Virus record (IMG/VR): IMGVR_UViG_3300020463_002464
Span: 1 to 34,563 of that record
Length of the DNA: 34,563 bases
DNA from: a virus
Reading direction: 5' to 3' (one strand)
The notes under the pieces were generated by a model. It was given only the letters and a program-made list of their open reading frames with translations. It was not told the origin of the DNA and searched no databases. Every line of letters begins with the position of its first letter. Position 1 is the first letter of the stretch. Below, piece after piece: positions 1-29,055 of the stretch. Made by a program: the position numbers and the translations under genes.

Positions 1-722
1 CCAGGACAAACACAGCCGCCATCAGCAATAATATGTCCACCAAGACCATGAGCAGCATCAGCACACTCCACGACTGCGGACAACTGCGGATAGCCCACAC
101 CAGTTTGTAAACGGGTAGTACAAACACTACCAGGACCAATGCCAACTTTAATAATATCTGCTCCACTTAGTATTAACTCTTGTGTTTGATCTCCAGTAAC
201 TACATTACCTGCAATAATAACAATATCACTGAACTGTGCTCTTAGTGTTCTAATAAAGTCTGCAAACCTTGTACTATATCCATTTGCAACATCTACACAA
301 ACATATTTAATGTTTCCGTTAGTCAGTTCCATAACTTTTAGAAACTTTTCCATATCCTTGTCCATGATGCCCATGCTATATGCTACATTTTCTACACGCC
401 TTTTTAGTTTATCAAAGTCTTCCGGATCAAAGAACTGTACAAGCTCATTTACTTCATATGTTTTTACAAGACAAGTAAACATTCCCATACTACTTAGTGC
501 ATCTGCCATGTCAAATGTACCAACTCCATCCATGTTACTTGCCATAATAGGAATGCCTTCATAATGACGTTCATCAGTTTCACCTGCTAGTATATTGGGT
601 TGATAGTGTCTAAATGTGTAACGTCTATGCAACCTTACTTCTTTACGACTTCCAAGTGTACTACGTTTAGGCCTCAGTAACACATTACTATAATCAAGTT
701 TAACATCTGATTCTATTCTCAT
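1..722 (-). CDS. guaC: GMP reductase, partial (3' end outside window)
   Basis: GuaC reduces GMP to IMP with NADPH in purine salvage. The visible N-terminal ~240 residues start [21 protein letters not shown], matching the bacterial GuaC opening (DVLIRPKRSTL), and later show the conserved [25 protein letters not shown] (catalytic Cys) and [10 protein letters not shown] segments, then the [13 protein letters not shown] glycine-rich region. The reading frame is open to the window edge, so the C terminus is missing. The ATG at 722-720 overlaps the stop of the upstream exonuclease gene (ATGA), so the two are translationally coupled. IMP dehydrogenase is the alternative, but the N terminus goes straight into the barrel without a CBS insert and looks like GuaC. 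In a phage it probably recycles host guanine nucleotides for DNA synthesis. Confidence 0.93.
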
Positions 723-1258
723 TTTAATACTAGTCCTAACTGTTGAACACATTGTTGTACACACAAAGCCTGTACTTTACAATCTTCTAGTGCATTGTGT
801 GCTTTAAAATTAATCTTTTTACGGGGATCTTCTGGCATAATACCAAATAACGTACGACTGTCTTTTACTATCCAAAACGGCCACGGACATATGAGATCCC
901 ATTGTTTGTACATATGTTCCATAATAACAACATCAAATGCAGGTCCTTGACACCAAAGTGTATCAATTCCTACACACCACTTTTTCAATGCTTGTAATAT
1001 ATCTACTACTGGCGTTCTATTAGCATCACCAAATGCATCTTCTTGAACATCTTTTGGCTGCGATGCCCACCATGCAAGTGTACTATCGTCTACTTCTCGT
1101 CCACGTTCACTTTGCTCATCAACGTCAAACTTGTAGTAAAATTCTTGGAACGGATCACTAATTGCATTTGGATTAAACTTTACTCCGCCAATAGTTAACA
1201 CCGTAGCATCAAAGTTCGTTGCTAACGTTTCCAAATCAATCATTGCATGTGTAGTCAT
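719..1258 (-). CDS. DexA-like 3'-5' exonuclease (DEDD/RNase H fold)
   Basis: A 179-residue DEDD-family exonuclease resembling T4 DexA and the Rv2179c-type nucleases. The first metal-binding motif is DLE at residues 8-10 (MIDLETL). The aromatic-rich middle includes STLAWWASQP, a typical DexA-family feature, and the last motif is HNALED near residues 154-159, which supplies the catalytic His and Asp. Such enzymes trim single-stranded DNA or RNA 3' ends; in T-even phages DexA takes part in host DNA breakdown. It is first in a two-gene unit with guaC, and a TTGACC-17-TACTAT promoter lies just upstream (1287-1315). The family assignment is firm; the true substrate (DNA or RNA) cannot be read from sequence. 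Confidence 0.88.
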   Translation of the reverse strand: MTTHAMIDLETLATNFDATVLTIGGVKFNPNAISDPFQEFYYKFDVDEQSERGREVDDSTLAWWASQPKDVQEDAFGDANRTPVVDILQALKKWCVGIDTLWCQGPAFDVVIMEHMYKQWDLICPWPFWIVKDSRTLFGIMPEDPRKKINFKAHNALEDCKVQALCVQQCVQQLGLVLK

Positions 1259-1953: not shown

Positions 1954-2690
1954 TATACAGTAAGTAAAATTTTGTCTTTGTGTCCGTTGGCTAAAATTTC
2001 TCTAGTACGATCTGTTTTTAACCCAGTAACTTGTAGTGTTGGACGTGGATGACTACTTGCATTACAAGTTGCATGAGGTACGTTTGACCAGTCAAATATA
2101 TGTGCTTCGCCTGCTTTCCAATGACTGTAAACATGTGTTCCATACATATAAAATTGTCCTGGTTGCCAGTCCTCTAGCATAATTGTAATACGAGCTACTT
2201 TTTCTGGATCTTCTGGACAACGGTCCCAAAGTTTATCAATATGATAATTAAACATCTGTCCTGTTAGTTGCACATGGGCACGTTTTTTAGCACCGTTTGT
2301 ACCAACTTCCATTCCAAAGAAATCCATCATTTTGTAAAGTGTTGGAAATTCTTCCCAATCATCTACAATGTTTGTTAACAAAAGATCCTTTGGTTTTCCG
2401 CCACCTTTGGCAATGTCATACTCTTCTTGTACTAACATAGGAGATTCTTTGTCGGTGTTTCCAAAGTACTTTCTTGTTTGCCAATTAATTGGTTTACTGC
2501 GTTCTACTAGCCTATCTGATTCTTCTTTCCAGTCACCTTCAAATCTGCCAATAATATCGTACCATTCTCCTGGCTTATCTGCAATATTTTTGTCAAAATG
2601 ATATTCACTGTGTGCAACTGTCCAGTCCCAACTTGATTGATATGCATCTGTTTCTTCTAATTGTTTATTCCAATTTGTATTATTATACAT
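1953..2690 (-). CDS. 2-oxoglutarate/Fe(II) oxygenase-like protein, copy A
   Basis: A 245-residue protein with a plausible facial triad: His150-x-Asp152 in FNYHIDKLWD, distal His206 in NVPHATCNAS and Arg216 in HPRPTLQVTG as candidate 2-oxoglutarate anchor. This order and the Trp-rich core (MLEDWQPGQF, YSHWKAGEAHIFDW) fit a double-stranded beta-helix dioxygenase of the aspartyl/asparaginyl-hydroxylase type. Substrate unknown. It lies directly downstream of TctA (start overlaps its end by 8 nt) and has a perfect TATAAATA box about 31 nt upstream of the start. A paralogue with altered triad residues lies on the other side of the transporter genes. Confidence 0.65.
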   Translation of the reverse strand: MYNNTNWNKQLEETDAYQSSWDWTVAHSEYHFDKNIADKPGEWYDIIGRFEGDWKEESDRLVERSKPINWQTRKYFGNTDKESPMLVQEEYDIAKGGGKPKDLLLTNIVDDWEEFPTLYKMMDFFGMEVGTNGAKKRAHVQLTGQMFNYHIDKLWDRCPEDPEKVARITIMLEDWQPGQFYMYGTHVYSHWKAGEAHIFDWSNVPHATCNASSHPRPTLQVTGLKTDRTREILANGHKDKILLTV

Positions 2691-4191
2691 AATCTAATCC
2701 TTTATCTTTTCTAACGATACTATTTATAAATATGCCCACTGCGATTAAAATACAAACTACAAAGATAGGATGGTTGTAAATGTTAAATAAATCTAACCAT
2801 CTAATATCCGCCCATGCCGCATATCCTGCTTTCCATTGCTTGTAGCCATATAACTGTAGTGTTCCCCAAAAGTATTGATCAATTTTAAATGCCACAACGT
2901 ATGCAACAAGTATTGCTGGTCTACTAATGTTGAAATATTTACAAACACAACCAATTGCACTTAATATTGTTAACAATGCTAAGTCTTCCCAACCACCTGT
3001 GTATTGCATATTTGCATAAATGATTACTGCTAAAATAAATGCGGCATAAATCCAAAATGGAACTTCTAATACTTTTAGGATATATTTGTAACAGAATATA
3101 CTTAATAATGCTACGCCAATTGTTCCAAAGATGTATCCAAATGCTAAACTATTTGTAAAGTTTAAATCATTTAATAAATCTGGTGTTCCAATTTCCATAC
3201 CAAAGTACATACAAATTGCCATAACCATAGCGGCAAATGGCGCGGCTGGAATTCCAAACAAACATGCAGGAATCATACTAGATACCTTTTGTGCATTGTT
3301 TGCTCCTTCGCAACCTAATAATCCTACTGGATTTCCTTCACCAAATGGAACTTCTTGATTCTTTTCTTTATGTGCGGCCTTAGTTGCTCCGTATGCCAAA
3401 AAGTCTCCTACGGCTCCCCCTACACCTGGTAGTAGTCCTGTGACAAAACCAATTAGTCCGCCACGGGCCATATCTCGCCAATTCTTTTTACAATCGCCAA
3501 ATCCTTCTCGTAAACCATCAAAATAGTTTCCATTCATTGGCGGTGCCGCTGATTTGATTTTTCGTCTGAATCCATCTAATAACTCTGGAACTCCAAATAG
3601 TCCTGATAGTAAAACTACCATACCAATTCCGTTTTGTAAGTATTCCCAACCAAAAGTTAGTCTAGGCTTACTGGTTACAGTTTCTCCAACCATACCAACT
3701 GCTAGTCCAAATATAATTGCAATAATACTTAAAAATACATTTTTACTTGCTACAAAGCCTACACAGGCTAGAGCCATCATCATAAAGCCCAAGAATTCAG
3801 GGCGTCCAAATAATACTATAATCTTTCCATAATAAGGAAGTAGGAAGAAAGTTAATGCCGCGAATATGACACCATTAAAGGTTGAGTCAGTAATAGCAAT
3901 ACCCATTGCTCTTGCCGCTTGACCTTTCTTTGCCATAGGATAACCGTCAATAACACATGCCGCAGTAGTACTTGCACCCGGAATGCCTGTTAGAATACTT
4001 GTGTAACTATCTGCACTTGCACAACTTGCTACAATTGCAGTAAGAAAGACCAACCCCAAGTAAGGATCGGCCATAAAATAAGTACCCATGCTAAAGACAG
4101 TTATCAGGGCGGTAGTTACACCTGCAATAGGTATAATACCAACTAGCATTCCATACATGGTGCCAATTAAAGCCCAGATAACATAGTCCAT
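2683..4191 (-). CDS. tctA: Tripartite tricarboxylate transporter large permease, TctA-like
   Basis: A 502-residue polytopic inner-membrane protein of the TctA family (PF01970), full length for the family. Family features include the N-terminal GMLVGIIPIAGVTTAL loop, SILTGIPGASTTAACVIDG with its Gly-Ile-Pro-Gly element, and the second half GFVTGLLPGVGGAVGDFL followed by IPACLFGIPAAP. About ten or more hydrophobic helices are evident. TctA carries the ion-coupled transport of carboxylates handed over by a periplasmic TctC protein. Its tctC-like partner lies 12 nt upstream, so the two form one unit. No TctB-like small four-helix subunit is present nearby. A complete TctA in a phage is unusual. 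The transported substrate cannot be deduced. Confidence 0.92.
   Translation of the reverse strand: MDYVIWALIGTMYGMLVGIIPIAGVTTALITVFSMGTYFMADPYLGLVFLTAIVASCASADSYTSILTGIPGASTTAACVIDGYPMAKKGQAARAMGIAITDSTFNGVIFAALTFFLLPYYGKIIVLFGRPEFLGFMMMALACVGFVASKNVFLSIIAIIFGLAVGMVGETVTSKPRLTFGWEYLQNGIGMVVLLSGLFGVPELLDGFRRKIKSAAPPMNGNYFDGLREGFGDCKKNWRDMARGGLIGFVTGLLPGVGGAVGDFLAYGATKAAHKEKNQEVPFGEGNPVGLLGCEGANNAQKVSSMIPACLFGIPAAPFAAMVMAICMYFGMEIGTPDLLNDLNFTNSLAFGYIFGTIGVALLSIFCYKYILKVLEVPFWIYAAFILAVIIYANMQYTGGWEDLALLTILSAIGCVCKYFNISRPAILVAYVVAFKIDQYFWGTLQLYGYKQWKAGYAAWADIRWLDLFNIYNHPIFVVCILIAVGIFINSIVRKDKGLDYV
2721..2728 (-). promoter_or_regulatory. T4-like late promoter box TATAAATA
   Basis: A perfect TATAAATA on the minus strand inside the 3' end of the TctA gene, about 30 nt before the start of the oxygenase-like gene. 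This is the T4 late-promoter consensus and fits the NATAAATA box of T4-like marine phages. It would allow the oxygenase and P-loop genes to be expressed late without TctA. Confidence 0.5.
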
Positions 4192-4203
4192 TAGTTTAGT
4201 CCT

Positions 4204-5256
4204 TTACTTTAAAAGTTCAGGCTTGTAGATTGATGGAAAGCCATATGCTTCTTGATTCCACTTAACTGCATCTTTAAGAGCTTTCTCTGTAATCAATGAT
4301 TTAAGTGCTTTCAATAATGCTGGTCCATCCTGGATCCAAGGATACACACCTGTCTTTGCATAAATTTCCTTACTTGCAACTGGATCATTGATCATTGCAG
4401 TAACAGCCGCTTTAATCTTGGCCGCATTAGGATTACCTTTGTTTACCCAAAGCGACTTTTGAATTGCATCACGCCAGTTACGAGTAAGTTTGTATGCATT
4501 GTACAAGTCACCTTTTGGTGCTTCACCCCATAACTTTGCATATACGTCTTCAAATTGTGTATTTGGAAAGTTTGGATCTGCTATTTGTACATTGTTTTCT
4601 AAGTCTAGGATACCATGTGTGAACCAAAGTTCATTACCTTTGATACCTGTATAAAAACGCTTCCATGCCGCTGGTGATTCACGAGCTACATCAAATTCTC
4701 CGTTTTTAAAACCAAGACGTTTTTCTCCGCCTGATACACCGTTTACCCAAACAAAACGCTCTCTCCAACATGCTAGATATGCTTCAACTGTACCACCTGG
4801 TTGTGGACCACATACCAACATAGCCGCTGCGGCCGCATCTGGTTCAAAACCTGATCCGCCAGCAATAGTCCATGTACCAGTCTTTTCATCCTTACCTTCT
4901 TGTTTACCAAGAACGATATCGTTGTTCATTGAACCCATAAGCTCATAGTCAAAGTAGTTGTAATCAATCTTATCTAGTAAGTATGATACACCATTTCCAC
5001 CATGTGCAACCATGATTGTTTTGTCATCAAAACGTAGGCTTTTATGGAATTTGTTAAAACCTGGAATATCTCTTGCTCCAGGAATATGACGAACCACTAC
5101 TGGCTCACCAATAAATTTTTCTAAGTTCTTTGCAATGATTTCTCCCCATACACTAGTGCCTTTGCCTGGTGCTTGTGGAACAATCAAAGTATAGTCTGCC
5201 ATGGCACTAGTAGCCATAAACATCGAGGCGATTAAGCCTAAAAATAGTTTTTTCAT
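4204..5256 (-). CDS. tctC: Periplasmic solute-binding protein, TctC/Bug family
   Basis: A 350-residue secreted binding protein. A signal peptide (KKLFLGLIASMFMATSAMA, cleavage before DYTL near residue 21) is followed by the TctC/Bug opening LIVPQAPGKGTSVWGEIIAKNL and GEPVVVRHIPGARDIPG, equivalent to the family's PGGxxD and VVVENRPGAGG segments. TctC proteins bind carboxylates in the periplasm and deliver them to TctA. It is the first gene of a two-gene unit with the permease 12 nt downstream. The leader is about 150 nt and holds a GATAAATA late box. Compared with typical Bug proteins the ligand loop (APGKGTSVW) is divergent, so the ligand may differ. Confidence 0.88.
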   Translation of the reverse strand: MKKLFLGLIASMFMATSAMADYTLIVPQAPGKGTSVWGEIIAKNLEKFIGEPVVVRHIPGARDIPGFNKFHKSLRFDDKTIMVAHGGNGVSYLLDKIDYNYFDYELMGSMNNDIVLGKQEGKDEKTGTWTIAGGSGFEPDAAAAAMLVCGPQPGGTVEAYLACWRERFVWVNGVSGGEKRLGFKNGEFDVARESPAAWKRFYTGIKGNELWFTHGILDLENNVQIADPNFPNTQFEDVYAKLWGEAPKGDLYNAYKLTRNWRDAIQKSLWVNKGNPNAAKIKAAVTAMINDPVASKEIYAKTGVYPWIQDGPALLKALKSLITEKALKDAVKWNQEAYGFPSIYKPELLK

Positions 5257-6360: not shown

Positions 6361-6752
6361 AGTTCGCCTTTTGATCTCATTTCTGCACGAATCTTAGTTG
6401 CACTAATATTATGCACACGTTCACCTAAGTCATGTTCTGTAAAAGTATATCCTACACCTCTACCATAACTTATGTCTACAATATTAGGTACTAACATTAC
6501 TTCAAAGTCTTCACCAATAATATATCCTTTTGTATATAAAACGCCAGCTATATCGTTACTTACTTTGTCAAAGTCAAATGGGTTGTCTGTATTACCCATA
6601 CCAGCATCAACACCTTGTACATCTCGTACCATAATTAAGACTTGTCCTGTAATTTCATGTGCCTTTTCAAAAAGTTGGCTATGTCCATCGTGCCATGGTT
6701 GCCATCTTCCTAACATTTGTACTGTAGGTTTTTTGTAGTCGAAAACGCTCAT
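6357..6752 (-). CDS. HIGH-superfamily nucleotidyltransferase (NMNAT/cytidylyltransferase-like)
   Basis: A 131-residue single-domain nucleotidyltransferase. It shows the N-terminal GRWQPWHDGH motif (residues 15-24), equivalent to GxFxPxHxGH, and the C-terminal ISATKIR motif (about 116-122), equivalent to ISxTxxR. These bind the nucleotide triphosphate. Enzymes of this size include nicotinamide-mononucleotide adenylyltransferases of the NadM/NadR type and glycerol-3-phosphate or phosphopantetheine nucleotidyltransferases; the GRWQPxHxGH form is closest to NadM/NadR. It is coupled to the upstream APS-kinase-like gene by a 4-nt overlap, hinting at a joint pathway such as NAD salvage or sugar/lipid head-group activation. 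Confidence 0.75.
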   Translation of the reverse strand: MSVFDYKKPTVQMLGRWQPWHDGHSQLFEKAHEITGQVLIMVRDVQGVDAGMGNTDNPFDFDKVSNDIAGVLYTKGYIIGEDFEVMLVPNIVDISYGRGVGYTFTEHDLGERVHNISATKIRAEMRSKGEL

Positions 6753-8120: not shown

Positions 8121-8878
8121 TTTCTATAAAAGTTATTTAATCGTTCAAATTGTTTATTATACTTACCTTCGATAATATCGTCGGCAAAACCTAAACTTGT
8201 AAACGGCTGAACTCCAGCACTTAAATATATACCTTCGTTCTTATGTGTGTTTCCAGATAATGCAATAAACTTACATTTTGCTTTAATAGCCGCATATGCC
8301 TCGTGATGTCTTCCTGTAATGAGTAAATCACAATGCCTTAGCCTATTTACAATCTCGTTCCATTCTTGTTTGAATATGTTAATTTTTGGAACCGGTGGAC
8401 TTAGATCCTGTTCGTTGTAAAACCATTGTCCTTGATATACTTTATTCCATTCATATTTTTGATATGGTACTTTAGGAATAATACTGCGATCAGGTTTTAT
8501 TACACTATCAATATTGTGTTTGTCTTTTAATTCTTTTTGTGATAAGACATCTCTAACTTCAATTACACTACATTTTTTTAATACTTCGTCAAACTTTATA
8601 GTCATATCTTGCCAAACAGTATTTACAAGTTGTGTTTCGCAACCTGCCGCTTGTGCTTGTTTTAGTGCTTCTAAAAACTTCAAAGGGTTTTGTCTGTTGT
8701 CACTACGGGTATGATGCATAGTACCTTCGCCATTAAGTATAACTTTTGTATACTTTGCAAAGTTTACATCTACTTGTCCGTTAGTTTCAATGCTATCATC
8801 AAAGGCAAATGTTTCAATAACTTTTGCACAACCATAATGATATTTTCTAGTGTCATTAAGTAATAGTGTTTTATACAT
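8111..8878 (-). CDS. Polysaccharide pyruvyltransferase-like protein
   Basis: About 255 residues. NDTRKYHYGCAKVIE near the start, VILNGEGTMHH, the VIEVRDVLSQKEL segment and the C-terminal DLLITGRHHEAYAAIKAKCKFIALSGNTHK match the layout of the polysaccharide pyruvyltransferase family (PF04230: NxGD, GGG, RDxxS, GxRxH). In the family this fold attaches ketal pyruvate to surface glycans. The ATG at 8878 is preferred; the open frame extends 9 nt further only to a TTG. It overlaps the NqrM-like gene by 10 nt and the clpS end by 8 nt. In a phage it could modify host surface sugar or virion glycan. Confidence 0.7.
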   Translation of the reverse strand: MYKTLLLNDTRKYHYGCAKVIETFAFDDSIETNGQVDVNFAKYTKVILNGEGTMHHTRSDNRQNPLKFLEALKQAQAAGCETQLVNTVWQDMTIKFDEVLKKCSVIEVRDVLSQKELKDKHNIDSVIKPDRSIIPKVPYQKYEWNKVYQGQWFYNEQDLSPPVPKINIFKQEWNEIVNRLRHCDLLITGRHHEAYAAIKAKCKFIALSGNTHKNEGIYLSAGVQPFTSLGFADDIIEGKYNKQFERLNNFYRKWI

Positions 8879-9185
8879 CTTCCTCAATACGAACTTCTAA
8901 AGGATAACCGTCTCGCCTGGCGGCAAGTGTTACTTCAACTCCTTTTTGTTCAGCAAGTTCGTAAGGATAAACTGCAACAACTGCACTACCATCTTCGTGT
9001 ATCTTTACCATCATGTCTGTGGCTTGTTCTTCTGACATAGCAAAGTATGTGGTGAGTATCATTATGACAAATTCCATTGTAGTTGTTTCGTCATTAAGAA
9101 GTATTACTTTCCAAAGACTAGGCTCTTTTACTTCAACCTCTTCAGATGTTTTTATTTTAACTTCTACTTCTACTTCTGTTGTCAT
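8871..9185 (-). CDS. clpS: ClpS, ATP-dependent Clp protease adaptor
   Basis: A 104-residue ClpS. After a charged, disordered N-terminal 20 residues comes the ClpS core WKVILLNDETTTMEFVIMIL, with Asn31-Asp32 and His63 (KIHEDGSAVV) in the places of the N-degron-binding residues of bacterial ClpS. YPYELAEQKG and the final VTLAARRDGYPLEVRIEED are also typical. ClpS delivers N-end-rule substrates to ClpA and inhibits delivery of ssrA-tagged ones. The phage also encodes a tmRNA (18058-18328), so both proteolytic tagging routes may be under phage influence. Confidence 0.93.
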   Translation of the reverse strand: MTTEVEVEVKIKTSEEVEVKEPSLWKVILLNDETTTMEFVIMILTTYFAMSEEQATDMMVKIHEDGSAVVAVYPYELAEQKGVEVTLAARRDGYPLEVRIEEDV

Positions 9186-10800: not shown

Positions 10801-11247
10801 TTATTTGATTTCAATAGTCTTTGGTTTCATTGCCTCTGGGACTATCTTTTGTAGGTGTATGCTTAAGATGCCATTATTTAAAGCGGCGTCTTTCACTTCA
10901 ACATATTCTGCTAGGTTAAAAGTTCTTTCAAAGTTTCGACTGCTAAGTCCTCTGTGTAAGTACTCATATCCGTCTGCTTCTTCTTCCGTACCGTCTGCTT
11001 TTTTAATTTGCTTTCCGCTTACAGTCAAAGTTCCATTTTCCATTGTAATTTCAATGTCAGGTTTTAAGAAGCCAGCGGCCGCAATTTCTATAAAGTAATG
11101 TTCATCATCTTTACGAATTATATTATACGGCGGATAATTTTGGTGTGTGCCCACTTCCATATTACTAGCAATTTGATCAAACAAAGTGTTGAATCCAATT
11201 GAGTTACGATAAAATGGGTTTAGGTCTAGTGAGGTAATTCTTGTCAT
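10801..11247 (-). CDS. Small heat shock protein Hsp20/IbpA family
   Basis: A 148-residue Hsp20. The N terminus LNPFYRNSIGFNTLFDQI is IbpA-like; the alpha-crystallin domain runs from about residue 38 (YPPYNIIRKDDEHYFIEIAAAGF) to about 135, including EITMENGTLTVSGKQ and the dimer-loop segment GYEYLHRGLSSRNFERTFNL; ALNNGILSIHL is the conserved A-x-x-x-n-G-v-L motif. The C-terminal KPKTIEIK holds an IxI/V-type anchor. Holdase chaperones of this type occur in marine T4-like phages. The gene has its own sigma70-type promoter and a structured, ROSE-like leader. Confidence 0.94.
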   Translation of the reverse strand: MTRITSLDLNPFYRNSIGFNTLFDQIASNMEVGTHQNYPPYNIIRKDDEHYFIEIAAAGFLKPDIEITMENGTLTVSGKQIKKADGTEEEADGYEYLHRGLSSRNFERTFNLAEYVEVKDAALNNGILSIHLQKIVPEAMKPKTIEIK

Positions 11248-11472: not shown

Positions 11473-11718
11473 TCATTGACCTTCAATTAGTGCTTTTTTC
11501 TTCTCCCAACGTTTACGTCCTGCTTTTTTGGCTAATCTACGTTTTTCACTGGGTTTTACGAATCGTTGCTTTTCTCTATAGAGCTGAATAACTCCTTCGT
11601 TAGCAACCTTCTTTTTAAATCGACGTAATGCACGAGCAAAATCCTCGCCTTCACGTACTGTTACATATAATCCCTCTTTGGGTTTGTCGAATCTTGGTCT
11701 TGGGTTAAATCTTGACAT
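11473..11718 (-). CDS. rpsU: Ribosomal protein bS21
   Basis: An 81-residue bS21: GLYVTVREGEDFARALRRFKK, the conserved N-terminal VxVxExExxxxALRRFKR block, then EGVIQLYREKQRFVKPSEKR and a Lys/Arg-rich tail (RRLAKKAGRKRWEKKKAL). bS21 sits on the 30S platform next to the anti-Shine-Dalgarno region and favours initiation. Phage-borne bS21 genes are known in pelagiphages and other marine phages, where they are thought to tilt translation towards phage mRNAs. The start abuts the stop of the upstream gene and a terminator follows the stop. Confidence 0.96.
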   Translation of the reverse strand: MSRFNPRPRFDKPKEGLYVTVREGEDFARALRRFKKKVANEGVIQLYREKQRFVKPSEKRRLAKKAGRKRWEKKKALIEGQ

Positions 11719-14805: not shown

Positions 14806-15231
14806 TCAAAGAGTAACCTTGCCTTCACTGATTAGACGTTGACGATTTCGCATGTGTTGCTCCTGTACATCTTCCTTTGCCTGCCCCCAATATTCAACGG
14901 CATGGCCTTCTTCTACTAAAATTTTTGCTACTGTACTATCTTCGTAGACAAAATCTCCTAGTATACGACCAAATTTACCTTTCATATCTTCACCATCTTT
15001 GTTTACTTGTGTTCTTAAGACAGTATCTTTTCCAAGCATTTGTTTAAGCCGGTCTTTTGCCGCATTTCCAAAGACTTTTTCTTCTTTATCTCTTGTACGG
15101 CTTTCCGGAGTGTCTATACCCATAATTCGAACTCTTTCGTCTTTGAGCCATATGCCAAAACCTAAGTCAATATCGACATCAACTGTATCTCCGTCAATAA
15201 CCTTAACTACTTGTGCTTTATACTCATACAT
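14806..15231 (-). CDS. Thermonuclease (staphylococcal nuclease family)
   Basis: A 141-residue SNase-domain protein without signal peptide. Conserved elements include VVKVIDGDTVDVDID (metal-binding Asp), ERVRIMGIDTPESR with the catalytic Arg, then KGKFGRILGDFVYEDSTVAKILVEEGHAVEYWG, which supplies the second Arg (GRILG) and the ILVEEGHA signature. It is a Ca2+-dependent phosphodiesterase acting on DNA and RNA. Such nucleases are common in T4-like marine phages and could help degrade host nucleic acid. The ATG has a GAGG ribosome site. A 158-nt gap to the next gene follows. Confidence 0.9.
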   Translation of the reverse strand: MYEYKAQVVKVIDGDTVDVDIDLGFGIWLKDERVRIMGIDTPESRTRDKEEKVFGNAAKDRLKQMLGKDTVLRTQVNKDGEDMKGKFGRILGDFVYEDSTVAKILVEEGHAVEYWGQAKEDVQEQHMRNRQRLISEGKVTL

Positions 15232-16921: not shown

Positions 16922-16998
<77 letters not shown>

Positions 16999-17019
16999 GT
17001 TATTCTTTACTTCTAAATT

Positions 17020-17093
17020 TGGCAGGCAAGCAAGGAATCGAACCCTGGTCCTCAGGTTTGGAATCTGATATGTTACCACTACACTACTCACCC
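17020..17093 (-). tRNA. tRNA-Trp (anticodon CCA)
   Basis: A 74-nt cloverleaf with encoded CCA and discriminator G73, as in bacterial tRNA-Trp. Acceptor GGGTGAG/CTTGCCT (three G-U pairs), D stem GTGT/ACAT, anticodon arm TCAGA-TTCCAAA-CCTGA, T stem CAGGG/CCTTG with loop TTCGATT. The anticodon stem has an A31-C39 mismatch next to the loop. Reading the loop one base off (Gly TCC) breaks two more stem pairs, so Trp is preferred. Confidence 0.85.
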
Positions 17094-17404
17094 TCTATAA
17101 TTCTTTGTACTAGTTGTTGACTGCTTCACTGACGTATTCATCTTTGTTAAGTTTAGCATCTCCACCTCCAACAACTTTCGGGTAGTACACTCCGGGCTAC
17201 TTGCTCCTCGAATCCTGTTTCGTAGTAGTTTGCTACTTCATCATCGGTGGATTAGGTCCGACTAGTTAGGTACCATCTAACGTGGTAAGTTTTACTTGGC
17301 GTCTAGATCTCGGCATGCACTTGTTTCAATCTAGTAACTTAGCCTACCCTTATATCAATAAACAGCATGACTGTTGGGCCTTTGTAGGTACCAAGTTTTA
17401 TTTG
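17094..17404 (-). ncRNA. Highly structured RNA of unknown family, next to the tRNAs
   Basis: A gene-free 311-nt stretch, more GC-rich than its neighbours, with many nested complementary segments (plus-strand coordinates): a closing helix 17391-17396/17294-17299 (ACTTGG/CCAAGT) enclosing 17384-17388/17343-17347, the hairpin 17361-17365/17371-17375, and 17329-17334/17303-17308 (CTAGAT/ATCTAG); then 17249-17256/17206-17215 (CCTAATCC with GGATT..AGG), the hairpin 17225-17236; and a 3' domain where 17106-17119 pairs with 17169-17176 plus 17184-17189 (14 bp interrupted by a 7-nt bulge). It is not a tRNA, RNase P, SRP or 6S RNA by motif. Strand is inferred from the flanking tRNAs. Confidence 0.65.
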
Positions 17405-17641
17405 TTATGCAACTAAATCAAATTTTGGATTTGAGTTGTATGGAACAGGTTGAAAACCAAAAACTTTATTTGCATTGGCAATATTTGCTAACGGCTTGTT
17501 AAGAACATTATCCTCAGCATACTTTGTTGCAGAATCTTTTGTAGCAAAAGACATTGGAACAGTACTGTTTGGATTACATACTACTTGACGAACAATACAA
17601 CTTTTAAGTGACACTAAACATTTTAACATATACATAAGCAT
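17405..17641 (-). CDS. Hypothetical protein (78 aa)
   Basis: Not recognised. A 78-residue protein with a short hydrophobic N terminus (MLMYMLKCLVSLKSCIV) that may be a signal or anchor, then a soluble part (MSFATKDSATKYAEDNVLNKPLANIANANKVFGFQPVP). The ATG at 17641 has an AGGAG ribosome site 6 nt upstream, and a TTGACA-16-TATTAT promoter lies at 17670-17697. The structured RNA begins right after its stop, so both may be on the same transcript. Confidence 0.6.
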   Translation of the reverse strand: MLMYMLKCLVSLKSCIVRQVVCNPNSTVPMSFATKDSATKYAEDNVLNKPLANIANANKVFGFQPVPYNSNPKFDLVA

Positions 17642-17669
17642 TTCTCCTGTTTTTTTAACTTACTGTTAT

Positions 17670-17697
17670 ATAATAACAAAATTACAGGATTTGTCAA
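17670..17697 (-). promoter_or_regulatory. sigma70-type promoter
   Basis: TTGACA (complement of 17692-17697), 16 nt, TATTAT (complement of 17670-17675), upstream of the 78-residue gene and the structured RNA-tRNA block. Confidence 0.6.
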
Positions 17698-17701
17698 CCT
17701 T

Positions 17702-17974
17702 TTATTTACTACCATTGCCAGAAAATTTTAACGGCTCTGGTTGATTAGGCGTATCACAAGTTACACTTTTAAGTGTTACTTTGTAACCATCTTTAAACAT
17801 TTCTTGAAAAGAACTAAGTCCTTTACCGCGAATTAAAAATTCATAATCTTTAAGAAATTGCTCGCATTTGGCCTGTGACTCAAAGTTTTTACTATAAACG
17901 TTAATGACCTCATCTTGTAAACCACCTTCTGGTGTAGCAATTGCAAGATTAAACAACAACATAAACGTATTCAT
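17702..17974 (-). CDS. Small, probably exported hypothetical protein (90 aa)
   Basis: A 90-residue protein of unknown family. The N terminus MNTFMLLFNLAIATPEGG looks like a short signal peptide; the remainder is soluble with two Cys (KCEQFL, VTCDTP) that could form a disulfide in the periplasm. It has its own TTGACA-16-TATATT promoter at 18015-18042. Confidence 0.6.
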   Translation of the reverse strand: MNTFMLLFNLAIATPEGGLQDEVINVYSKNFESQAKCEQFLKDYEFLIRGKGLSSFQEMFKDGYKVTLKSVTCDTPNQPEPLKFSGNGSK

Positions 17975-18014
17975 CTTTCTATCTCACTTCTGTCCTATAA
18001 AAACAATATTACTT

Positions 18015-18042
18015 AATATAACACAGAAACAAGGCCTGTCAA
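18015..18042 (-). promoter_or_regulatory. sigma70-type promoter
   Basis: TTGACA (complement of 18037-18042), 16 nt, TATATT (complement of 18015-18020), just downstream of the tmRNA gene and about 40 nt before the 90-residue gene. Confidence 0.6.
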
Positions 18043-18057
18043 CCGTTTAAGCCATGA

Positions 18058-18328
18058 AATAACAACTTTTCTGTTGCTAGGTAAGTTGCCAACCCCCACG
18101 TGCCTATTTTAGGCCGCTAATGCCATTTCTGGCTCATAATTGTCATTTGCAATTATAGTTTTGTTCGCGTTAACCGAGCTTACATCCGGACAACTCCACA
18201 CTCCTACTAATCTGCCTGTCGATCCTATTTCGCCCCCATCATAAGCACACTCAGTAAATGTGTTTATGGTGGAGGCGCAGGGTACCGCCCCCTGGTCCAG
18301 TTCAGTGTTTGAATTGCTTCAACATTGT
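18058..18328 (-). ncRNA. ssrA: Permuted two-piece tmRNA
   Basis: The acceptor piece comes first: T-arm CAGGG-GGCGGTA-CCCTG (complement of 18278-18294), acceptor strand CGCCTCC, A, encoded CCA ending at 18267. A 29-nt spacer (18238-18266) follows, then the coding piece starting GGGGGCG at 18237. GGGGGCG pairs with CGCCTCC over 7 bp and puts a G3-U70 pair in place, the alanyl-tRNA synthetase identity element. The resume codon GCA (18150-18148) opens the tag reading frame ANDNYEPEMALAA, stop at 18111-18109. The ANDN...ALAA tag is typical of Alphaproteobacteria, which have such circularly permuted ssrA genes. Ends are approximate. The T-loop departs from UUCRA. tmRNA rescues stalled ribosomes with SmpB and tags products for Clp proteolysis. 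Confidence 0.92.
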
Positions 18329-18334
18329 GTCTTA

Positions 18335-18363
18335 TTTATAACATATATTAGCATATAAGTCAA
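18335..18363 (-). promoter_or_regulatory. tmRNA promoter: TTGACT-17-TATAAA overlapped by late box TATAAATA
   Basis: TTGACT (complement of 18358-18363), 17 nt, TATAAA (complement of 18335-18340). The -10 box is part of a perfect TATAAATA (complement of 18333-18340). Predicted transcript start is near 18328, a few nt before the acceptor piece. Confidence 0.7.
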
Positions 18364-18374
18364 TAAATATATGC

Positions 18375-18719
18375 ATGATACAGAAGATAAAAGACAAGTG
18401 GAAACAATGTAAAGACAAGTGGACTATTGATCATACTATTGATGTAATAGTCGATATTACCCTATTACTGATTGACGTAATTATGTCACCTGTGTTAATA
18501 GTTGTCAGACTTGTAAGGTATGTAATTGGAGATTGGATTGCAGATAAACTTAAATGGATTATTAAGTTAATAGTACACTGGTATCAAAGACAGCACCAAA
18601 TAGTACGAAGATTAATAGTAATAGTCTTCTTTATAGCATTACCATTTTTACTTATTATTCTGTGGGCGTTTTCTGAATTTTGGACAATGTATTGGGAATA
18701 CAATTGGGGCGACAAGTAA
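18375..18719 (+). CDS. Membrane protein on the plus strand (114 aa)
   Basis: One of only two plus-strand genes. A 114-residue basic protein with two hydrophobic segments (about 24-50, VIVDITLLLIDVIMSPVLIV, and 80-104, LIVIVFFIALPFLLIILWAF) between Lys/Trp-rich stretches. The stop abuts the stop of the convergent gene at 18720 exactly, which supports it as real. ATGs at 18371 and 18375 are in different frames; the latter is in frame. No clear ribosome site; an AATAAATA box (18362-18369) is too close to serve a start here. Two-helix architecture with charged ends would fit a holin-like protein, but this is a guess. Confidence 0.55.
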   Translation: MIQKIKDKWKQCKDKWTIDHTIDVIVDITLLLIDVIMSPVLIVVRLVRYVIGDWIADKLKWIIKLIVHWYQRQHQIVRRLIVIVFFIALPFLLIILWAFSEFWTMYWEYNWGDK

Positions 18720-19034
18720 TTAAACTACAAGACTTGGTGTACTTGGAGTTAAAACTGAACTTGTATTTGCTAGATATGCTTGTTTGATTTGATTATCTGG
18801 TTGTGCAGTCATTGTTACACCTTGTTTATAAATGAATACTGGATTATTCTCCCAATCTGCACTAATCATCATAGGTGCTAATGCTGGTCCTTTTTCTTGT
18901 AAAATAACTGTAAGTGGTTTATGTACTTTGTAACTGTCGGTTGAGATTTCAGTTAATTTTGCAATTATTTCTTCGCCTGTATTCAGTCTAAAAACAATAA
19001 CATCATCAACTTTAAAGTTTGAAGTTGCTAACAT
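18720..19034 (-). CDS. LSm-like small beta protein, T4-like phage family
   Basis: A 104-residue protein starting NFKVDDVIVFRLNTGEEIIAKLTEISTDSYKVHKPLTVIL. The pattern (V..RL.TGEEI.A.L.....D.Y.V..P) is that of the small Sm/LSm-barrel-like proteins found next to the ribonucleotide-reductase genes of T4-like marine phages. The C-terminal third is low-complexity (TSSVLTPSTPSLVV). It overlaps the glutaredoxin gene by 23 nt. Function unknown. Confidence 0.65.
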   Translation of the reverse strand: MLATSNFKVDDVIVFRLNTGEEIIAKLTEISTDSYKVHKPLTVILQEKGPALAPMMISADWENNPVFIYKQGVTMTAQPDNQIKQAYLANTSSVLTPSTPSLVV

Positions 19035-19284
19035 CGATATTTCCTAATCTTTCATTGAGTTGTTGTTTGCCTAATGCCCGCAAACCATCATAGCCACCTT
19101 CGACTAATAGTTTGCCGTTATTATAAATCTGCGGAATTGATCGATGTCCATTTAGTTTTATGAATTCTAATGCTTCTACATTATGTGTTATATTCTTTTC
19201 TTTAAATGGAATGTCCCATTCATTCAATAACATTTTTGCTCGTGTACAGTATGCACAAAGGTCGCCCGTATAAAGTGTAATCAC
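19012..19284 (-). CDS. Glutaredoxin
   Basis: A 90-residue glutaredoxin with the redox motif CAYC (residues 10-13) after the first strand (MITLYTGDL), cis-Pro segment HRSIPQIYNNGKLLVEGGYDGL and a C-terminal helix. It supplies electrons to class Ia ribonucleotide reductase; the gene overlaps nrdB by 4 nt, the same pairing as in other T4-like phages. Confidence 0.93.
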   Translation of the reverse strand: MITLYTGDLCAYCTRAKMLLNEWDIPFKEKNITHNVEALEFIKLNGHRSIPQIYNNGKLLVEGGYDGLRALGKQQLNERLGNIDVSNFKL

Positions 19285-20408
19285 AGACTAAATCCTTTGA
19301 ATGTTTCATCACTGACATCTTGCTTTGTTCCGCCAATTACATAACTACTAATTTCAGTTTCTTGTGGTGCTACTTGTACTTCTGCTCCACTGATCCACTT
19401 TTGTGTCCATGGCAATGGATTACTACTACCTTTGTACGGACTTGTTAAACCAACTGCTGTCATACGACGGTGTGCAGTCCATTCAACATATTCTTTAAGT
19501 AGTTGTGCATTTAATCCAATCATACTACCGTCTTTAAACAAGTAATCTGCCCATGCACTTTCCTGTTCAACTGCATCTGTGAACATTTTTGTACATTCTT
19601 CTTTTGTTTCTTTTGCTATTTTAACAAAATCAGGGTCATCCTTTGGCAATAATTTTAATAATGTTTGTGTACTTGCTAAATGTACGTTTTCATCACGACA
19701 GATAAATTTAATAATTTTAGCATTACCTTCCATTTTTTTAAGTTCAGCAAATGCCCAACTACATGCAAAGCTCACATAAAAACGTATACCTTCTAAAATG
19801 TTAACACTCATAATTGCTAACCAAAGTGCTTTCTTTACTTCATACTCGTCAACTACAACCTTCTTACCATTTATTGTGTGTTTTCCTGTACCAAGTAATT
19901 GCAGTTGTAAACTTTTTTCATTAAGATCATCATAATAAAAACTAATGTCATCTGCACACTCAACAATCTCTGGAATGTCCATTAATTCATCAAACACTTT
20001 ACTTGGGTTTGCATATACATTACGAATAATATGTGTATATGAACGGCTATGGATTGTTTCGCTAAATGTCCAAGTTTGCACCCAACACTCTAGTTCTGGA
20101 ATACTAATAAGTGGACCAAATGCTTCAGTTGGTGCTCTACCTTGTACACTATCTAACAAGATCTGTCTCTTAAGGTTGCTTGTAAAAATATGCTTTTCGT
20201 GTTTAGTTAATTCTTTGAAGTCTTTTGAATCTTTGCCTATGTCAACTTCTTCAGGTCGCCAGAAGAAACCTAACTGTTTATCTGTTAATTTATCAAACTG
20301 CTTGTACTTTAATGTATCAAACCTTTGTACTTGAACACCTCCATTTGGGTCCAAAAATGCTTTACTTTCTATGTGATTCTTTTTTATCTTACTATCAAAT
20401 ACTGACAT
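19281..20408 (-). CDS. nrdB: Ribonucleotide reductase class Ia, beta subunit
   Basis: About 375 residues from the ATG at 20408, which has a GGAG site; the frame is open further upstream but that part overlaps nrdA and is not needed. NrdB houses the diiron-tyrosyl radical cofactor. Visible are LLDSVQGRAP (metal Asp region), WTFSETIHSRSYTHIIRN with the radical Tyr equivalent to E. coli Tyr122, and AKIIKFICRDENVHLASTQ with metal Glu/His ligands. The C-terminal tail (SDETFKGFSL) is the expected NrdA-binding end. Located 13 nt after nrdA. Confidence 0.96.
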   Translation of the reverse strand: MSVFDSKIKKNHIESKAFLDPNGGVQVQRFDTLKYKQFDKLTDKQLGFFWRPEEVDIGKDSKDFKELTKHEKHIFTSNLKRQILLDSVQGRAPTEAFGPLISIPELECWVQTWTFSETIHSRSYTHIIRNVYANPSKVFDELMDIPEIVECADDISFYYDDLNEKSLQLQLLGTGKHTINGKKVVVDEYEVKKALWLAIMSVNILEGIRFYVSFACSWAFAELKKMEGNAKIIKFICRDENVHLASTQTLLKLLPKDDPDFVKIAKETKEECTKMFTDAVEQESAWADYLFKDGSMIGLNAQLLKEYVEWTAHRRMTAVGLTSPYKGSSNPLPWTQKWISGAEVQVAPQETEISSYVIGGTKQDVSDETFKGFSL

Positions 20409-20421
20409 AATATATCTCCGT

Positions 20422-22713
20422 TTATATTGTACAACTATCGCAGGCTTCTTCGTCTTCTGCAATATCTTCTAAAGGTTGATCCATTTTACCGACGTCAATT
20501 TCTCCTTGTCCGTCATTTGTATTAAAGTAGTATAATTGCTTTCCACCATACTTATAAAACATTAATAAATGTTGTAGCATGATACTCATTGGTATCTTTT
20601 CATCTTCATAAAAAGATGGATTGTAACTTGTATTTACACTAATTCCTTGATCTATGTACTTTTGCATCACTGCCATAATTTGTAAATATCCTTCTGGCGA
20701 TGCTTGGTTCCATAGTAACTCATACTTATTTTTTAAACGACGATATTCCGGAACAACCTGTTTAAGAACACCGTGTTTACTTTGTTTTACACTTACATAT
20801 GCACGTGGCGGCTCAATGCCGTTTGTGCTATTTGAAATCTGTGCAGAAGTTTCTGCTGGCATTAAAGCCATCAACGTACTGTTACGAATACCTGTTTTCT
20901 TCAGTTGCTCACGCAATGACTCCCATGGCATTCTCTCGGTGTGTGGTACCAGCTCATCAACTTCTTGCTTGTAGGTCTGGTTTGGGGTAAGACCATCACC
21001 GTACTTTGTTTCGTCAGTCCCAGGACAAGCACCCTGCTCTTTTGCAAGATCCGCTGAGGCTTTAATTAGGTAGTAACTCCATGCTTCAGTATACTCATCA
21101 ATCATTTCTAAATTTGGGTTGGTGTAAGTCATGTCATTTTTAGCCATCCAATATGCTAAATTAATAATACCAACACCAAGAGGTCTACGTTTCATTGTAG
21201 AATTTTCAGCTGATTTCACTGGATAATTTTGATAGGTTAATAATGCATCTAATCCACGTACTGCAAGTTCACAGGGCTTTTCAAAGTCTTCTGGCTTTTT
21301 AATATTGCCCCAGTTGATTGCACTTAATGTACATAATGCAATTTCACCATCCGGATCATTAAAATCACTTAGTGGTTTTGTAGGCAGATTAATTTCACAA
21401 CATAAGTTACTTTGTTTTACCGGTGCAAGTTCTTCTTTAAAAGCACTATGACTATTTGCATTATCAACATTCATTAAGTAGATACGTCCTGTATTTTTAC
21501 GTTCTTCCATAAATGAACTAAACAAATCAATTGCACGAATAGTTTTTTTACGCAATCTTGTATTACGCTCTGCAGTTTCATATAACCTTTTAAATTCGTC
21601 GTAGTCGTTAAAAAATGCTTCATACAGTCCAGGAACATCACTTGGACTAAACAATGTAATGTTATCATTAGCAATTAAACGCTCGTACATTAACTTATTA
21701 AACTGTACCCCATAATCCATATGCCTTACGCGATTATCTTCAGTACCTTTGTTATTTTTCAATACTAGCAAATCTTCTACTTCGTAATGCCATACTGGGT
21801 AGTACAGGGTTGCCGCACCATTGCGTACTCCTCCTTGGCTACAACTTCTCGTTGCGGCTTGGAACATTTTATAAAACGGTATAACTCCAGTGTGATAGGC
21901 ATCTCCACTTCTAATTGGTGATCCCAATGCACGAACAGATCCTGCTCCAATCCCAATGCCTGCTTTCTGGGATACATACTTAACGATACTGCTAGTAGTA
22001 GCATTAATACTGTCCAAACTATCTGCAGTTTCAATGAGTACACAGGACGAAAACTGCCTTTGCGGCGTTCGTACGCCAGCCATAACAGGAGTAGGCAAAC
22101 TAACATCAAAGGTAGATATTGCATCATAGTAATCCTTTACATATTGCATACGAGTTTCTTGAGGATATTCAGCAAATAATGTTGCCGCTATCATCATGTA
22201 TGCTACTTGTGGTGTCTCAAATATTTCACCTGTTACTCTATTTTGTACAAGATACTTGCCACGCCATTGTTCCATGGCCGCATATGTTTGAACTTCATCG
22301 CGAGCATGATTTATAAAATTATCTAATTCGTTAATTTCTTCTACAGTATAACTTTCTAGTATTGCTGGATCATATGCCTTGCGTTCAATATTGTCATTGA
22401 TAATTTCCAACAGTGGTTTTGGTTCAAATTGTCCATAGACTATTTTCCGCAGATGATAGTTAATTAATCTTCCTGCTACAAACTGATAGTTTGGAGTTTC
22501 TTCGCTGATAAGATCAGCGGCACTCTTAATTAATGTTTCTTGTATTTCAGTAGAAGATATTCCTGTAAAAAATGATAGATGTGACTTAATTTCAACTTCA
22601 CTTGCACTAACGCCTGTGATATTTTCAGTTGCAAAAAATACTACATCATGCATTTTTTCTAAGTCTAGTGGTTCTGTTTCACCATCACGTTTTGTTACTT
22701 GAATGTTTGTCAT
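20422..22713 (-). CDS. nrdA: Ribonucleotide reductase class Ia, alpha subunit
   Basis: A 763-residue NrdA, colinear with E. coli/T4 NrdA. N-terminal ATP cone (QVTKRDGETEPLDLEKMHDV) for allosteric control; active-site cysteines in RQFSSCVLIETADS, QSNLCCEINLPTKPL and GEIALCTLSAIN; glycine loop RALGSPIRSGDAYHTG; substrate-site segment SNSTNGIEPPRAYVS; and the C-terminal redox pair CDSC. Reduces NDPs to dNDPs for phage DNA synthesis together with nrdB and glutaredoxin, encoded in order downstream. Confidence 0.97.
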   Translation of the reverse strand: MTNIQVTKRDGETEPLDLEKMHDVVFFATENITGVSASEVEIKSHLSFFTGISSTEIQETLIKSAADLISEETPNYQFVAGRLINYHLRKIVYGQFEPKPLLEIINDNIERKAYDPAILESYTVEEINELDNFINHARDEVQTYAAMEQWRGKYLVQNRVTGEIFETPQVAYMMIAATLFAEYPQETRMQYVKDYYDAISTFDVSLPTPVMAGVRTPQRQFSSCVLIETADSLDSINATTSSIVKYVSQKAGIGIGAGSVRALGSPIRSGDAYHTGVIPFYKMFQAATRSCSQGGVRNGAATLYYPVWHYEVEDLLVLKNNKGTEDNRVRHMDYGVQFNKLMYERLIANDNITLFSPSDVPGLYEAFFNDYDEFKRLYETAERNTRLRKKTIRAIDLFSSFMEERKNTGRIYLMNVDNANSHSAFKEELAPVKQSNLCCEINLPTKPLSDFNDPDGEIALCTLSAINWGNIKKPEDFEKPCELAVRGLDALLTYQNYPVKSAENSTMKRRPLGVGIINLAYWMAKNDMTYTNPNLEMIDEYTEAWSYYLIKASADLAKEQGACPGTDETKYGDGLTPNQTYKQEVDELVPHTERMPWESLREQLKKTGIRNSTLMALMPAETSAQISNSTNGIEPPRAYVSVKQSKHGVLKQVVPEYRRLKNKYELLWNQASPEGYLQIMAVMQKYIDQGISVNTSYNPSFYEDEKIPMSIMLQHLLMFYKYGGKQLYYFNTNDGQGEIDVGKMDQPLEDIAEDEEACDSCTI

Positions 22714-28170: not shown

Positions 28171-29055
28171 TTACTGTTTTAGTGTCTCTTGCTTTTCTTT
28201 TTCTATCCACTTTGTGGCTTTTTTACCTACTGGTGCGTTTATAAATTTTTGTGTGTTATTATATACCTTGTCGAAGTTTTCTGAACGTGTTGGATCTTCA
28301 AGTCCTCCACTGTTATCGACAATGAAAAAATTATCAGCCTTGAAAATTTGCTGATATTTCATAATGTTCTGTTGTGTATCGTTCCAAATCTTTTCAACCA
28401 TTTCTGGAGGAAGACTGCGATTACGTTGTAAGTTTCTTTCTTGTGCCATTTCAAGATTAGTGTTAACAAATATCATGCCTACATCATATCCAATAGCTCT
28501 TAGTTTGTTTACATGTCTTTCGATTAAATTAGGGTCTTTTCCAGTACCATCAATCACTAGTCCTAATCTACCATCTATGTATTGTGCTTCTCTTGACTTG
28601 GTCATACTTTTTGCTTTAGCACGGACTTCTTGTCCTTGCGGAGATCCAATAACTTCTGGCTTTAGCTCAAGATCTTGCTTTGTCATTAAATATTCATATA
28701 CGTCGTCACTGTTGACAACTTTAAGTCCTGTGCCACCTAGTAGTTTTTTAGAGACAAAGCTCTTACCACTACCCGGGCCTCCGGCAAGAAAGATTGCTTT
28801 AAATATATGAGGATCATTGACGCCTTCGTCAATGTCATCTTCAGTTGCAATTTCCAAGTCTTGTCCAGGACGTATGGTGTTTGTTCCTGCTTGTGCTGAG
28901 GGCTTTTTCTTTTTTAATTTAGGCTTATTAGGAGTAGACATGTCAATATCAAACTTTTTCAAGTCAATTTTAACTGCACCACCATCTAATTCTAAATTGT
29001 CGCCTGCAACTCGTGTAACTTTTCCACCAATTTCGAATAAGTCATGTAATCTCAT
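28171..29055 (-). CDS. P-loop kinase (zeta-toxin/polynucleotide-kinase type) with CTS-like N terminus
   Basis: A 294-residue protein. MRLHDLFEIGG at the start resembles a capsid-targeting peptide (possible cleavage after Glu8). Residues 1-80 form a charged N-terminal region; the kinase starts with FLAGGPGSGKSFVSKKLLGG (Walker A about 92-99), then VVNSDDVYEYL, LVIDGTGKDPNLIERHVNKL and MIFVNTNLEMAQERNLQRNR, the lid arginines. This is the layout of AAA_33/zeta-toxin and T4 polynucleotide-kinase type enzymes. It may phosphorylate nucleic-acid ends or small molecules. If the leader is a packaging signal, the kinase would ride in the virion. Confidence 0.72.
   Translation of the reverse strand: MRLHDLFEIGGKVTRVAGDNLELDGGAVKIDLKKFDIDMSTPNKPKLKKKKPSAQAGTNTIRPGQDLEIATEDDIDEGVNDPHIFKAIFLAGGPGSGKSFVSKKLLGGTGLKVVNSDDVYEYLMTKQDLELKPEVIGSPQGQEVRAKAKSMTKSREAQYIDGRLGLVIDGTGKDPNLIERHVNKLRAIGYDVGMIFVNTNLEMAQERNLQRNRSLPPEMVEKIWNDTQQNIMKYQQIFKADNFFIVDNSGGLEDPTRSENFDKVYNNTQKFINAPVGKKATKWIEKEKQETLKQ

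Follow-up and report, generated by a model that had tools for sequence, protein, structure and literature searches.

A tmRNA gene carried by a phage may be a piece of borrowed host genome, a decoy aimed at the host, or a gene that the virus itself keeps and uses; phage tmRNAs have so far mostly been explained as host-derived genes. This question is raised by a locus in IMG/VR record IMGVR_UViG_3300020463_002464, a linear fragment of 34,563 bases (34.6 kb) from an uncultured virus, here referred to as the window.

The tmRNA gene and its viral record

The window encodes NrdA, NrdB, a glutaredoxin, a PD-(D/E)XK nuclease, a DUF6267 protein, virion proteins and a cell wall hydrolase, and by this gene content it is classed as a marine myovirus of the T4-like kind, with the phages Melnitz, HTVC008M and Mosig as distant relatives. 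A comparison of its first 25 kb with 50,697 phage records gave no near match.

A complete circularly permuted two-piece tmRNA gene was found on the minus strand, running from 18328 to about 18061. A sequence-only reading had proposed a phage-borne gene of this kind at 18058-18328, a span correct to one or two bases, and had left out the strand. The gene was called as a permuted tmRNA by ARAGORN, and the Rfam alpha_tmRNA model RF01849 matched over its whole length (model positions 1-355; window 18367-18059, minus strand) with 127.6 bits (E 9.9e-35) against a curated gathering threshold of 50 bits, the upstream part of the model being aligned with mispairs and 12 missing positions in the window. 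The merged model RF04321 (tmRNA_permuted) scored 121.5 bits (18328-18109, minus strand). The RF01849 match also bears out the alphaproteobacterial type that had been proposed, and of the outcomes named as refuting the earlier reading, lack of an alpha-tmRNA match and lack of a pairing partner, neither was seen.

The permuted order can be seen directly in the letters, with an acceptor half carrying an encoded CCA, a spacer and then the coding half. The encoded CCA, the 29-nt spacer, a 7-bp acceptor helix between the halves (CGCCUCC/GGGGGCG) with the alanine identity element G3.U70, and a GCA resume codon followed by a tag had all been listed beforehand and were all present, the last two also in the ARAGORN call. 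The tag ends in ALAA, a C-terminus of the protease-signal type. The parts of the gene and its promoter are as follows.

18358-18363, minus strand: TTGACT, -35 element, 17 nt before the TATAAATA octamer
18333-18340, minus strand: TATAAATA, predicted -10 element of a sigma70-like promoter, with a predicted transcription start at about 18328
18267-18328, minus strand: acceptor piece (ARAGORN, Rfam, pair support; 5' end predicted)
18328-18324 with 18190-18194, minus strand: inter-piece helix of ACAAU with GUUGU, joining both pieces (pair analysis)
18294-18278, minus strand: T arm, within the acceptor piece
18277-18271, minus strand: acceptor 3' strand CGCCUCC (letters read directly)
18270-18267, minus strand: encoded ACCA (letters read directly)
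18266-18238, minus strand: intervening spacer UAAACACAUUUACUGAGUGUGCUUAUGAU, 29 nt (letters read directly)
18061-18237, minus strand: coding piece with acceptor 5' strand, D-region, tag reading frame and 3' pseudoknot (3' end predicted)
18237-18231, minus strand: acceptor 5' strand GGGGGCG (letters read directly)
18150-18148, minus strand: GCA resume codon, inside the resume consensus UAUAAUUGCAAAUGACAA
18109-18150, minus strand: tag reading frame GCA...GCC UAA, including the UAA, encoding ANDNYEPEMALAA* (ARAGORN, letters)
18061-18095, minus strand: H-type pseudoknot 3' of the tag (pair analysis, 3'-half swap test)
18095-18092 with 18082-18079, minus strand: pseudoknot stem of GGGU with ACCU
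18090-18083 with 18068-18061, minus strand: pseudoknot stem of GGCAACUU with AAGUUGUU

As a kind, permuted two-piece phage tmRNAs are already published (Melnitz, Mosig; PMC9004378). Buchholz et al. 2022 (PMC9004378) reported a two-piece alpha-like tmRNA for phage Melnitz and for related SAR11 phages, and counted 53 two-piece tmRNAs across phages, of which 50 stem from samples of marine or aquatic origin; the tmRNA database holds 97,179 sequences and 79 unique phage tmRNAs (PMC11915505). Like the window, Methylophilales phage Melnitz and Pelagibacter phage Mosig belong to marine T4-like myoviruses whose permuted tmRNA is of the alpha type, and their records also lack SmpB. The Melnitz tag (ANDNYVPVDYALAA) has the same ANDNY start as the tag of the window, while the Mosig tag is only GEDNFALAA. 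In Melnitz and Mosig, however, the gene lies between a PD-(D/E)XK nuclease and a gp33-like late coactivator, whereas that of the window lies downstream of nrdA-nrdB-grx, and neither phage has the ClpS gene found in the window. Melnitz furthermore has a glutamine riboswitch (RF01739) at its tmRNA gene (positions 6365-6413 of its record); a search of positions 17000-19300 of the window gave no RF01739 match at E up to 5, and riboswitch control as in Melnitz was ruled out on this basis.

Compared to the Caulobacter-type tmRNAs of RF01849, the window shares the gene order, an alpha-type T loop, the resume motif, the ALAA tag end and a 3' pseudoknot with AACAGAA, but its tag and promoter differ and it belongs to a viral clade outside all sampled cells. 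Permuted tmRNAs like that of the window are carried by the cultured alphaproteobacterial phages Phaeobacter MD18, DSS3_MAL1, Rhodobacter RcSimone-Hastad, Mesorhizobium Cp1R7A-A1, Erythrobacter L02 and Caulobacter RB23, with tags differing from that of the window (e.g. ANTNAAPMEMAIAA and ANDNVRMDAQALAA). The GenBank annotation returned for MD18, RcSimone-Hastad, Cp1R7A-A1, RB23 and L02 held no tmRNA feature. The tmRNAs of Bxz1, Wildcat, phage G and the huge phages are, we presume, of the standard one-piece form. Phage-encoded trans-translation RNA is shared by the window with these mycobacteriophages (Bxz1, Wildcat), Bacillus phage G and huge phages (PMC4131195, PMC7162821).

Selection on structure and tag, and a conserved promoter motif

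Related sequences were collected by scanning IMG/VR twice, by acceptor-stem pattern and by tag, and each scan gave at least about 120 contigs. Pairing was analyzed in 17 diverse related phage copies, with shuffled and slid controls. The proposed structure was paired in 97.2% of cells, compared to 83.5% after shuffling and at most 45% after sliding, and 22 pairs had changed on both sides; the covariation score was 0.423 (shuffled 0.166, slid at most 0.058). Compensatory changes were found in the acceptor helix, the T stem, the inter-piece helices and the 3' pseudoknot, and these changes together with the Rfam E-value exclude chance as an explanation of the match. The inter-piece helix ACAAU/GUUGU was paired in 100% of cells, two of its pairs having changed on both sides (UA/GU/AU/GC and UA/CG/AU), and the spacer itself forms a hairpin (helix 6), with 94.7% of cells paired and two-sided changes at 6 pairs. 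Pairs 4, 5 and 6 of the acceptor helix swap among G-C, C-G, U-A and A-U within the phage set, and G3.U70 and ACCA are constant in 92 of 93 phage sequences, the remaining one looking like a coordinate artefact. The 3' pseudoknot was supported by the same analysis (helix 8). Its loop motif AACAGAA is invariant, and the stem closing this loop occurs as 23 distinct stems among 40 phages with a mean of 6.8 bp, compared to a mean of 4.0 bp (maximum 4.8) when 3' halves were swapped.

As one of the two sets was fetched by its ANDNYxPEM tag, positions 1-9 of the tag are uninformative on selection there, and selection was therefore judged from the last four tag codons and from the set fetched by acceptor stem only. 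Differences in these codons numbered 1272, 294 and 3143 at codon positions 1, 2 and 3 in the ANDNYxPEM set, and 2305, 800 and 5882 in the acceptor-stem set. In the acceptor-stem set, the final Ala-Ala is kept via three or four synonymous codons each. Because the differences fall mostly at third positions and Ala-Ala is kept synonymously, the sequences indicate that the tag is selected as a peptide.

The gene is preceded by a conserved promoter-like element. The exact octamer TATAAATA was present in 50 of 59 distinct ANDNYxPEM phage tmRNAs (58 of 59 when one mismatch was allowed), at a fixed distance of 31-37 nt before the T-arm domain; it was found in 0 of 96 bacterial tmRNAs and in 2% of shuffles. 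Upstream of the octamer, TTGACA was matched at five or more of six positions in 48 of 50 sequences and perfectly in 38 of 50 (shuffles 4%), and the spacing between the two elements was exactly 17 nt in 47 of those 48. The start predicted from this arrangement, at about 18328, is the first base (5' end) of the first inter-piece helix. TTGACA-N17-TATAAATA is thus predicted to be a near-ideal sigma70 promoter, dedicated to the gene and conserved. Its -10 element is also the late-promoter octamer of T4, so transcription of the tmRNA may be early, late or both. A purely T4-late reading of the octamer was dropped in view of the perfectly spaced -35 element in nearly all relatives.

Kinship and genomic locus of the gene

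At least 119 viral contigs carry the ANDNYxPEM tag, so this group is not a rare one; the tag differs from host tags and was seen in none of the cellular tmRNAs found among 84,980 GTDB species genomes. The shorter pattern ANDNYxPE occurred in 13 contigs of the GTDB species genomes, eight of them without a tmRNA by ARAGORN. The true cellular tmRNAs among the 13 were those of three Hyphomicrobiales-type genomes, in which the tag end differs (ANDNYAPEAVAA), and two contigs (L126 and L130) are viral contigs filed under MAGs. L130 matches an IMG/VR viral contig (L198) both in length and in its tmRNA scores. L126 (PBPT01000016.1, 335,231 bases), filed in a Neomarinimicrobiota MAG, carries the phage genes of the window in order, the tmRNA and ClpS, and is probably a jumbo-size phage binned with a bacterium.

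A phylogenetic tree was constructed with IQ-TREE, leaving out the tag. One branch (97/93) separated 24 alphaproteobacterial and 6 SAR11 tmRNAs from all 46 phage tmRNAs, including four from the cultured alphaproteobacterial phages, in a tree of about 226 short-RNA columns with some long branches and poorly settled forks, in which the hosts are a sample and the tag-based fetch favours the ANDNYxPEM group. AU tests rejected grouping the window with SAR11 (p 5e-14) or with other Alphaproteobacteria (p 1e-7). The best BLAST matches in 385 alphaproteobacterial genomes covered the tRNA-like part only (top match 84%, query positions 30-111). A comparison with SAR11 had been suggested for the tag and acceptor; SAR11 tags have 9 residues (ANDELALAA, ANNKLALAA) and are unlike the tag of the window, and SAR11 was ruled out as the tmRNA donor by this difference together with the AU result.

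The position of the gene in the genome is conserved as well. The neighbours discussed here and below are listed in order of position.

8871-9185, minus strand: ClpS, adaptor of ClpAP (PF02617, 5e-29)
10801-11247, minus strand: HSP20, in a conserved block with ClpS
11473-11718, minus strand: ribosomal protein bS21 (PF01165), in a conserved block with ClpS
16922-16998, minus strand: tRNA-Arg(acg), downstream of the tmRNA on the same strand (ARAGORN, Rfam)
17020-17093, minus strand: tRNA-Trp(cca), downstream of the tmRNA on the same strand (ARAGORN, Rfam)
19012-19284: glutaredoxin, in a conserved locus with nrdA and nrdB
19281-20462: nrdB, in a conserved locus with nrdA and glutaredoxin
20422-22713, minus strand: nrdA, upstream neighbour of the tmRNA in the conserved locus

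Among the matches listed, the tmRNA followed nrdB on the same strand at a distance of 0.8-6 kb in 51 of the 53 contigs having both genes, with NrdA identities to the window at this locus ranging from 93% down to about 54%. Distances between tmRNAs and between NrdA proteins showed a weak but significant correlation (Mantel r 0.27, p 0.01, n 18).

Judged from these sequences, the tmRNA gene is alphaproteobacterial in type but has long been viral and belongs to an old virus-only lineage. Capture from an alphaproteobacterial host, which the sequence-only reading had called most likely, does not hold in that form against the all-viral group, the fixed locus and the AU rejections, and survives at most as a remote event. 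Since all phage tmRNAs fall outside the cellular clade and the groupings of the window with hosts are rejected, any such capture would be old. A large virus-only clade with its own tag, promoter and locus shows that viruses can maintain a trans-translation RNA by vertical inheritance, and the ANDNYxPEM tag can serve as a marker for such viruses in metagenomes. In the cited phage-tmRNA literature we found no description of the ANDNYxPEM virus-only lineage, the TTGACA-N17-TATAAATA promoter, the nrd locus or the ClpS link, and likewise none of the absence of phage SmpB in this group.

Unusually long tags of 22-31 residues, compared to the usual 8-15, were seen in seven viral tmRNAs. One of these (L097; ANDNALSNVTFVDFSAPVTAVNEDFALAA) sits at the same nrd locus.

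Protein partners, proposed function and alternatives

No SmpB was found in 22 phage records or on the 335-kb contig L126, and in the bin of that contig SmpB is encoded on another contig. Function of the tmRNA would therefore depend on host SmpB, whereas some huge phages encode SmpB along with a tmRNA (PMC7162821).

The ClpS/HSP20/bS21 block recurs in relatives 7-9 kb from the tmRNA, where it also contains an IMPDH/GMP reductase-domain protein. ClpS was present in 12 of 16 records with the tag of the window and in 0 of 7 other phage records with a tmRNA or the acceptor pattern (Fisher p 0.0013), the records being related and non-independent and several of them fragments. In known phages the gene is rare (15 of 50,697 records by tblastn with the ClpS of the window), and ClpS has been noted in jumbo phages (PMC7824862; PMC6102473). 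A phage that adds a tag and has its own ClpS could steer the choice of protease, because in E. coli ClpS diverts ClpAP from substrates with ssrA tags to N-degron substrates.

We favour, with a probability of about 0.82, a working phage tmRNA that relies on SmpB, AlaRS and Clp proteases of the host for trans-translation and is inherited in the virus lineage. The RNA would be transcribed from its own promoter, and host tRNA-processing enzymes would excise the 29-nt hairpin spacer, giving an acceptor and a coding piece. These pieces would be held together by the acceptor helix and the ACAAU/GUUGU helix, both steps by analogy with the Caulobacter-type two-piece tmRNA. Host AlaRS would charge the RNA via G3.U70, and host SmpB would bring it to ribosomes stalled on broken messages. 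Such messages are expected from mRNA degradation in infection, and the phage encodes a protein with a 3'-5' exoribonuclease Rv2179c-like domain (PF16473, 6e-36; 719-1258, minus strand), a possible source of truncated messages needing tmRNA, and an SNase-like protein (14806-15231). The ribosome would resume at GCA, append ANDNYEPEMALAA and be released, the ALAA end would route the product to host ClpXP-type proteases, and phage ClpS would probably bias host ClpAP toward other substrates, to the presumed benefit of the phage.

The phage RNA might instead be a decoy that, by titrating SmpB or AlaRS, suppresses trans-translation in the host rather than performing it. The lack of SmpB in the phage records would suit this, and a precedent exists in mycobacteriophage DS6A, whose RNA, a tRNA-like domain only, resembles a strong tmRNA inhibitor that perhaps works via SmpB titration (PMC4131195; PMC11915505). 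A decoy needs no reading frame, however, while the resume codon, tag and stop are kept here with synonymous drift and the 3' pseudoknot is maintained by compensatory change. As the tag frame is under selection, we regard a decoy as unlikely.

A recent capture from a present alphaproteobacterial host, which would make the gene a passenger or a spare copy of the host gene, could draw on the alphaproteobacterial Rfam type and on the 84% matches to hosts, but these matches end at the tRNA-like domain, both AU tests speak against kinship with SAR11 (p 5e-14) or other Alphaproteobacteria (p 1e-7), no cellular tmRNA of the GTDB species genomes was found to have the tag, and dozens of divergent viruses have the gene at this locus and behind this promoter, all of which leaves a recent capture very improbable. 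Hardly credible at all is a relic of integration, in which a piece of host ssrA was taken up by imprecise excision of a temperate phage. Although phages often integrate at ssrA and fragments of that gene can occur in prophages (PMC9004378), the window has the whole gene, with a promoter of its own, within a block of T4-like replication genes; none of the window ORFs stood out as an integrase, and compensatory changes point to continuing function.

Beyond the working tmRNA favoured above, we tentatively propose a wider role, which we consider possible but doubtful: a virus-owned rescue and tagging module, of an old lineage apart from all cellular ones, with its own degron and a sigma70/late promoter, in which ClpS redirects host ClpAP, leaving it to the virus to choose the unfinished proteins to be destroyed and the protease that destroys them. 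Such a module may also restore translation after host defences have cut mRNA or tRNA. Addition of the tag during infection and a shift of protease choice by ClpS are testable predictions.

Apart from the tmRNA, the window encodes a TctA permease of a tripartite tricarboxylate transporter (PF01970, 1e-85; 2683-5256, minus strand), an unusual nutrient transporter gene for a phage, to which known phage records gave weak matches only (<30% identity). It is followed by a gene for a probable substrate-binding protein without a Pfam match. A protein with a zeta-toxin-like/AAA_33 P-loop kinase domain is encoded within the virion-gene region (28171-29055, minus strand).
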